DNA from: Chloroflexota bacterium
Lineage (GTDB): Bacteria > Chloroflexota > Dehalococcoidia > CAUJGQ01
Direction: 5' to 3'
Assembly: GCA_963170165.1 (NCBI GenBank)
Contig: CAUJGQ010000047.1
Span: 1 to 64,000, forward strand
Length of the DNA: 64,000 nt
Shown here: in pieces, positions 58,170 through 61,111 of the stretch
Layout: each line of letters opens with the position of its first letter
How positions within the stretch are numbered: position 1 is the stretch's first letter
Position numbers and translations under genes: made by a program
Notes under the pieces: generated by a model
Database searches by the model: none
The model's input: only the letters and a program-made list of their open reading frames with translations
Told to the model about the DNA's origin: nothing

Positions 58170-58502
58170 ATGAAGATTGAGACGTATCTCGGGCGCGGCT
58201 GCTCACACGAGTCCGCGACCCGCCAGGTGATTGACCAGGCGCTGGCCGAGGCGAGCATCACCGACGCGGAGCTGGTGTTCATCTCAGTGGACAGTCCGGA
58301 GGACGCCCGCGCCAAGCGCATGCTGGGTTCCCCCACGATCCGCGTCAACGGCATTGACGTCGAGTACGGGGACCGCGAGCCGGACGAGACCACCACCGGC
58401 TGTCGCTACTTCAACACCCCGGACGGCTGGAAGCCAGTCCCCCACAGTGGCATGATCGTGCGGACGATCAACGTCGCCCGCTCCCGCGAGAAGAAAGCCT
58501 AA
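58170..58502 (+). CDS. Thioredoxin-fold-like small protein (active site CSHE rather than CxxC)
   Basis: MKIETYLGRGCSHESATRQVIDQAL...KRMLGSPTIRVNGIDVEY...TGCRYFNTPDG; GGAGG RBS. Confidence 0.65.
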   Translation: MKIETYLGRGCSHESATRQVIDQALAEASITDAELVFISVDSPEDARAKRMLGSPTIRVNGIDVEYGDREPDETTTGCRYFNTPDGWKPVPHSGMIVRTINVARSREKKA

Positions 58503-60458: not shown

Positions 60459-60562
60459 GGTGTTGACGCTCCGTTCGCTGTGCGTGCGCAACATTATAGA
60501 CAGGCTGACACCAAGGGCTCATCCGCGCTACACTGCCGCCCAACTCCCGCGAGGTCAAACCC

Positions 60563-61111
60563 ATGCCATGGATAACTACGGTCCCCGAGGATGAGGCAGA
60601 GGGCCCGCTCAAGCGCGAGTACGAGCAGGCGATCCGCCGCGCGGGGCATGTGTTTCACATTCTCAAGGTGCAAAGCCTCACGCCACGCATCCTGCACGCA
60701 GGTATGGGGCTCTATCAGGCGCTCATGCTCAGCGATGCATCGGCACTGAGCCGGACGGAGCGAGAGGCAATCGCCACCGCCGTTTCCCAGGCCAACGGCT
60801 GCCGCTACTGAACCCAGGCTCACGGGGAGGATCTCCGTGCCGTCTCGGGCGACGCCGCGCTGGCCAACGCCGTCATGAACGGGGATCGCACCGGACCGAT
60901 GCCGGAACGGCTGCGGTCGCTGCTGGATTTCGGCGTCCAGGTGGCCACGGACGTTCACTCCGTCACGCCCGCCCGGCTGGACAGCCTGCGCGCCACCGGG
61001 CTGACCGACGAAGAGATCCTCACCTGCATCCACGTGGCCGGGTTCTTCAGCTACTACAACCGTCTGGCAGACGCGACCGGCATCGACCTTGAGCCGTTCA
61101 TGCACGCGTGA
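60563..61111 (+). CDS. AhpD-like/carboxymuconolactone-decarboxylase family protein with in-frame TGA at the CxxC resolving position: predicted selenoprotein (CxxU)
   Basis: Two track ORFs (60563-60811 and 60875-61111) are in the same frame; readthrough gives ...EREAIATAVSQANGCRY-[TGA]-TQAHGEDLRAVSGDAALANAVMNGDRTGPMPERLRSLLDFGVQVATDVHSVTPARLDSLRATGLTDEEILTCIHVAGFFSYYNRLADATGIDLEPFMHA, full-length family architecture with no other in-frame stop. Confidence 0.82.
60813..60849 (+). promoter_or_regulatory. Candidate bacterial SECIS element
   Basis: Immediately 3' of TGA (60809-60811): CCC-A-GG-CU-CACGGGG-AGGAU-CUCCGUG-CC-GUCUC-GGG; 7-bp upper stem (60821-60827/60833-60839, one G-U), apical loop AGGAU starting 17 nt after the TGA with G in the first two loop positions. 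Confidence 0.62.

Follow-up and report, generated by a model that had tools for sequence, protein, structure and literature searches.

A predicted AhpD-like CxxU selenoprotein gene in an uncultured Dehalococcoidia genome

Introduction

Selenoproteins that carry a CxxU motif in an AhpD-like or CMD fold have been recovered repeatedly from environmental sequence. The Sargasso Sea survey reported CxxU AhpD-like and CMD selenoproteins (27 and 4 sequences, respectively; PMC1088965), and the GOS survey counted 299 sequences of AhpD-like 1 (COG2128) and 70 of AhpD-like 2 (pfam02627; PMC2398784). Such proteins also occur in bacterial genomes (PMC1794560), and "AhpD-like protein TIGR01926 CxxU" is an entry in Table 1 of a 2026 catalogue (PMC13188914). 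Metagenomes have yielded AhpD-like CxxU selenoproteins since 2005, and the kind is not new. In AhpD itself, the proton relay comprises Glu118, Cys130, His132, Cys133 and His137 in Mycobacterium tuberculosis, and Glu36, Cys48, Tyr50, Cys51 and His55 in PA0269 of Pseudomonas aeruginosa (PMC3141380).

Here, we describe a candidate member of this group in a 64,000-nucleotide stretch of a Chloroflexota draft genome (class Dehalococcoidia), hereafter the window. An initial annotation, made from the letters of the window, had proposed an AhpD-like selenoprotein there and had noted reports of AhpD-like selenocysteine (Sec) proteins in environmental surveys, in agreement with PMC1088965 and PMC2398784. 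Given how thoroughly CxxU selenoproteins of the AhpD-like and CMD types have been catalogued (PMC1088965, PMC2398784, PMC13188914), the gene is less surprising than that annotation took it to be.

Results and discussion

Gene structure and the in-frame TGA

The gene and its signals lie near the end of the window:

60563..61111, + strand: AhpD-like (TIGR01926) selenoprotein gene, 182 residues with predicted Sec at position 83; the end includes the TGA stop
60551..60555, + strand: Shine-Dalgarno-like sequence GAGGT, separated by 7 nt from the start codon at 60563 (ATG), read directly from the letters
60809..60811, + strand: in-frame TGA for the predicted Sec83, where the family CxxC has its second Cys; of 56 homologues, 36 hold TGA in this column and the other 20 hold TGC or TGT

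The initial annotation held that the mechanical ORF list splits one gene at a single in-frame TGA, that read-through restores one AhpD/CMD-family protein of 182 residues, and that the TGA occupies the second cysteine of the family motif. Each of these points stands. The frame opens at ATG 60563 and closes at TGA 61109-61111, TGA 60809-60811 is its sole interruption, and the list does give two pieces, 60563-60811 and 60875-61111. The read-through product is a single CMD/AhpD protein that matches PF02627 (59 bits) and TIGR01926 (peroxidase-related, AhpD-like; 145.3 bits over residues 2-174, above the curated cut-off of 81.8). Because the TIGR01926 match spans the TGA, the two mechanical ORFs represent one gene. 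Read through the TGA, the active-site motif is NGC-R-Y-TGA-T-Q-A-H-G, and the GC content at the three codon positions resembles that of coding sequence before the TGA as well as after it (0.67/0.48/0.77 upstream, 0.71/0.47/0.88 downstream).

Sec and Cys codons share one column in homologues

Homologues were sought in 294 genomes of the class Dehalococcoidia (Chloroflexota), with matches in 80. All internal stops listed in this search were TGA (TAA 0, TAG 0). Residue 83 aligns with TGA in 36 of 56 distinct homologues, with TGC in 18 and with TGT in 2, counts that do not represent a frequency of TGA since some TGA loci were fetched for holding one, while the position of the TGA was unselected. 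Every homologue without TGA at this column has a Cys codon there, and TGA is found in each of the three nearest orthologues, which are 53-55% identical to the window protein. Sec and Cys thus fall at one column, as the alignment check proposed in the initial annotation anticipated, and its argument that the TGA sits where chance would hardly have placed it is strengthened accordingly.

Two of the loci recur under other accessions: the place of L027 (genome G251) is the same as one in JAUWYP010000001.1 (Dehalococcoidia bacterium), and that of L025 (G129) the same as one in CAJXNA010000154.1 (uncultured Chloroflexi), which assigns the window to class Dehalococcoidia of phylum Chloroflexota. A search with the protein alone gave no named relatives, and one with the tighter alignment A3 returned six loci, two of them being the G129 and G251 places. 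Downstream of the TGA, selection is purifying both in the pair L025/L026 (dN 0.018, dS 0.069, dN/dS 0.26) and in the pair L025/L027 (dN 0.26, dS 0.84, dN/dS 0.31).

These data bear on the possibility that a recent nonsense mutation, or a sequencing or assembly error, interrupted a Cys-type AhpD-like gene. A single base change turns TGC or TGT into TGA, and the window comes from a draft assembly. However, TGA stands at the same codon in homologues of many independent assemblies, relatives show purifying selection on both sides of it, and the gene has a predicted SECIS hairpin in a genome with the full Sec machinery (both described below). We consider this explanation very improbable and reject it, contradicted as it is by the independent homologues with the same TGA.

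tRNA-Sec was detected in 209 of the 294 class genomes, and in 23 of 26 genomes with a TGA homologue compared with 14 of 24 with Cys-only homologues (Fisher p = 0.024; genome-level counts transcribed by hand from two search listings). With tRNA-Sec so widespread in these genomes, the association is modest. It also counts against Sec use that tRNA-Sec was not detected in three TGA-homologue genomes (G005, G249 and G211), which are drafts of 80-90% completeness.

Gene neighbourhood is not kept. The window gene lies beside an M20-type peptidase, a LuxR-type regulator and an NAD-dependent epimerase, which are not retained around the orthologues, and a shared operon context was sought for orthologues L096 and L097 and not found, as their neighbours differ. 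The same genome also encodes an all-Cys paralogue (C168:22988-23500).

A covarying SECIS-like hairpin follows the UGA

The initial annotation had suggested looking for a bacterial SECIS element in 60800-60870, and a candidate was found:

60821..60839, + strand: predicted bacterial SECIS hairpin, an 8-bp stem (60821-60828 with 60832-60839) and loop GGA (60829-60831), 17 nt after the UGA

The hairpin reads CACGGGGA-GGA-TCTCCGTG, with 8 pairs over 19 nt and a folding energy of -10.1 kcal/mol. Published bSECIS criteria comprise a loop of 3-9 nt, a stem of 4-16 bp, G in the first two loop positions, a spacing of 16-37 nt and an MFE of at most -7.5 (PMC13188914). Applied by hand rather than via bSECISearch, all of them accommodate the window hairpin (3-nt loop GGA, 8 bp, spacing 17 nt, -10.1 kcal/mol).

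The hairpin recurs in Sec homologues with compensatory changes and is mostly missing from Cys homologues. In 22 distinct Sec sequences that carry this stem, pairing holds in 91.5% of cells, a percentage biased upward by the choice of sequences with at least 6 of 8 pairs, which affects the double changes and the Cys control less. Double-change cells number 18 against 5.3 ± 1.6 after shuffling, and the covariation score is 0.330 against 0.130 ± 0.019, with none of 500 shuffles as high. Sliding the stem partners lowers every measure of pairing and covariation. All 26 distinct sequences counted begin the loop with G. Two stem positions occur, and 35 of 36 Sec homologues but only 5 of 20 Cys homologues form a stem at one or the other (Fisher p about 1e-8), and fold z-scores differ likewise (median -1.8 for Sec vs 0 for Cys, p about 2e-7). 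Of the 36 Sec genes, 27 have a stem that starts 10 nt after the UGA, and 8 (L036, L037, L044-L046, L067, L076 and L077) have one that starts 18 nt after it.

Within the window gene itself, synonymous resampling of TQAHGEDLRAVSGDAA gave all 8 pairs in 85 of 20000 versions (0.4%). The total folding energy of this 28-nt stretch is, however, ordinary for GC-rich synonymous sequence, with 19% of recodings as low, and the 45-nt fold z-score of the window gene is -1.25.

The genome encodes the Sec-insertion machinery

The draft assembly comprises 4.41 Mb in 213 contigs and is 97% complete and 3.5% contaminated. A lack of Sec machinery, which the initial annotation had named as grounds for abandoning the selenoprotein reading, was not encountered, as selA, selB, selC and selD are all present. 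The tRNA-Sec gene selC scores 70 bits and is called by ARAGORN as tRNA-SeC with anticodon TCA; selA scores 503 bits, selB 318 bits plus a C-terminal piece within the same 732-aa frame, and selD 355 bits. The last has an in-frame TGA of its own:

G000:C150:16052-16984: selD (L018), predicted Sec-containing selenophosphate synthetase with an in-frame TGA in MVSCGGUASKAG

The four loci lie on four different contigs, making contamination an improbable source of all of them, and their GC content (0.67-0.72) is close to that of the window (0.68).

The machinery also weighs against a reading of UGA as some other amino acid, such as Trp, through genome-wide reassignment or suppression. The frame is open whenever TGA is taken as sense, as this explanation would have it. 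On the other hand, the window gene and its closest orthologues terminate in TGA, the aligned residue in homologues is Cys, and selA, selB, selC and selD are in the genome. On these three grounds code reassignment is rejected, and we give it next to no weight.

Active site and fold of the read-through protein

The read-through protein retains the AhpD relay pattern E-x11-C-x2-C-x3-H as E68, C80, U83 (Sec for Cys) and H87:

60764..60766, + strand: Glu68 codon, invariant in alignment A1; counterpart of the AhpD proton-relay Glu (Glu36 of PA0269, Glu118 of M. tuberculosis AhpD)
60800..60802, + strand: Cys80 codon (TGC), first residue of CxxU, invariant in alignment A1; TGC or TGT in every scored locus
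60821..60823, + strand: His87 codon, invariant in alignment A1; counterpart of the relay His (His55 of PA0269, His137 of M. tuberculosis AhpD)

Glu68, Cys80, Tyr82, Sec83 and His87 have AhpD spacing, and their columns are invariant in alignment A1 when Sec is written as Cys. The nearest solved relatives are the peroxidase-related AhpD-core structures 2pfx, 3c1l, 6k40, 2prr and 2oyo (E = 3e-23 to 5e-19), and in the alignments with 2pfx, 3c1l and 6k40 a Cys stands at the Sec column. The predicted fold of the window protein is fixed by these PDB relatives (E about 1e-23).

Programmed termination, with a functional 82-residue N-terminal product and a separate downstream ORF, would agree with the two ORFs of the mechanical list but is rejected as exceedingly unlikely, because the TIGR01926 match crosses the join, each Cys homologue is one uninterrupted protein, the TGA precedes the catalytic His87, and family sequence restarts right after the TGA, ahead of the ATG of the second ORF.

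Proposed explanation

Sec recoding of the UGA, as the initial annotation proposed, is supported by the machinery, the Sec/Cys column and the covarying SECIS-like hairpin, from which we infer insertion. The gene is very probably intact, given the full Sec machinery, the same stop at the same site in relatives and the matching hairpin downstream, and its UGA is very probably recoded as Sec. Taken as a whole, we regard it as almost certain, on sequence grounds, that this is an intact gene for an AhpD-like (TIGR01926) thiol/selenol oxidoreductase in which SelB and the hairpin at 60821-60839 direct Sec to UGA 60809-60811. During translation, SelB loaded with Sec-tRNA-Sec would bind the hairpin, and Sec would be inserted to give a C-R-Y-U active site. 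By analogy with AhpD, Glu68, Cys80, Tyr82, Sec83 and His87 would form a proton-relay active site; the conserved positions suggest that Sec83 would be the reactive residue, reducing a peroxide or a peroxiredoxin partner, and that Cys80 would resolve the selenenylsulfide. The protein most likely acts as a thiol/selenol peroxidase or reduces a peroxiredoxin partner.

Other selenoprotein-related loci

Several further loci were noticed. In the window, 58173-58499 (+ strand) encodes a small protein scoring 71.6 bits against NCBIfam NF049942, DF family (seleno)protein (cut-off 70); it is a Cys form (GRGCSHES), and its gene precedes that of the predicted AhpD-like selenoprotein by 2 kb. Elsewhere in the genome, a second CMD-family gene (L060; G000:C176:783-1010, minus strand) has an in-frame TGA in a CPFU motif and resembles NF053654, YciW-related (seleno)protein, along its length, with 144 bits falling under the cut-off of 310. 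Four TGA-containing AhpD-like matches on the same strand, within about 3 kb of another genome (G238:C22:19376-22541; L078, L082), form an apparent tandem cluster of selenoprotein genes.

Evolution of Sec and Cys forms in Dehalococcoidia

A tree of the 56 homologues, with several long branches and weak deep support, needs three Sec/Cys changes, a provisional guide to the number and direction of conversions. We tentatively suggest, while holding it somewhat doubtful, that Dehalococcoidia AhpD-like genes switched between Cys and Sec more than once, with SECIS elements built at two positions. If true, the class would offer a natural record of repeated SECIS origin.

Comparison with known systems

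Our analysis joins into one complete redox gene two pieces that ORF calling based on stop codons keeps apart. As the prevalence of tRNA-Sec indicates, selenoproteins of the AhpD-like and CMD types are frequent in Dehalococcoidia, a class for which our literature search on selenoproteins found little. What is new here is a single member from an uncultured lineage, together with two alternative positions of the SECIS in the family; the understanding of how selenoproteins work is unchanged.

With M. tuberculosis AhpD (PDB 1gu9) and P. aeruginosa PA0269 (2o4d), the window protein has relay residues in common at the spacing E-x11-C-x2-(C/U)-x3-H (PMC3141380). It differs from them in its predicted Sec for the second Cys and is not AhpD sensu stricto, scoring 19.3 bits against TIGR00777 (curated cut-off 192). 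NF041238, AhpD-related (seleno)protein (Sargasso hypothetical protein 1), and the CMD-like PF02627 CxxU selenoproteins share its superfamily and CxxU motif, but at 68.2 bits against a curated cut-off of 175 the window protein lies outside the NF041238 equivalog. The closest described system is AhpD-like TIGR01926/COG2128 CxxU (AhpD-like 1 of GOS), which has the same family model and the same CxxU with Sec at the second Cys, and from which the window gene differs only in its host lineage, an uncultured Dehalococcoidia draft genome.
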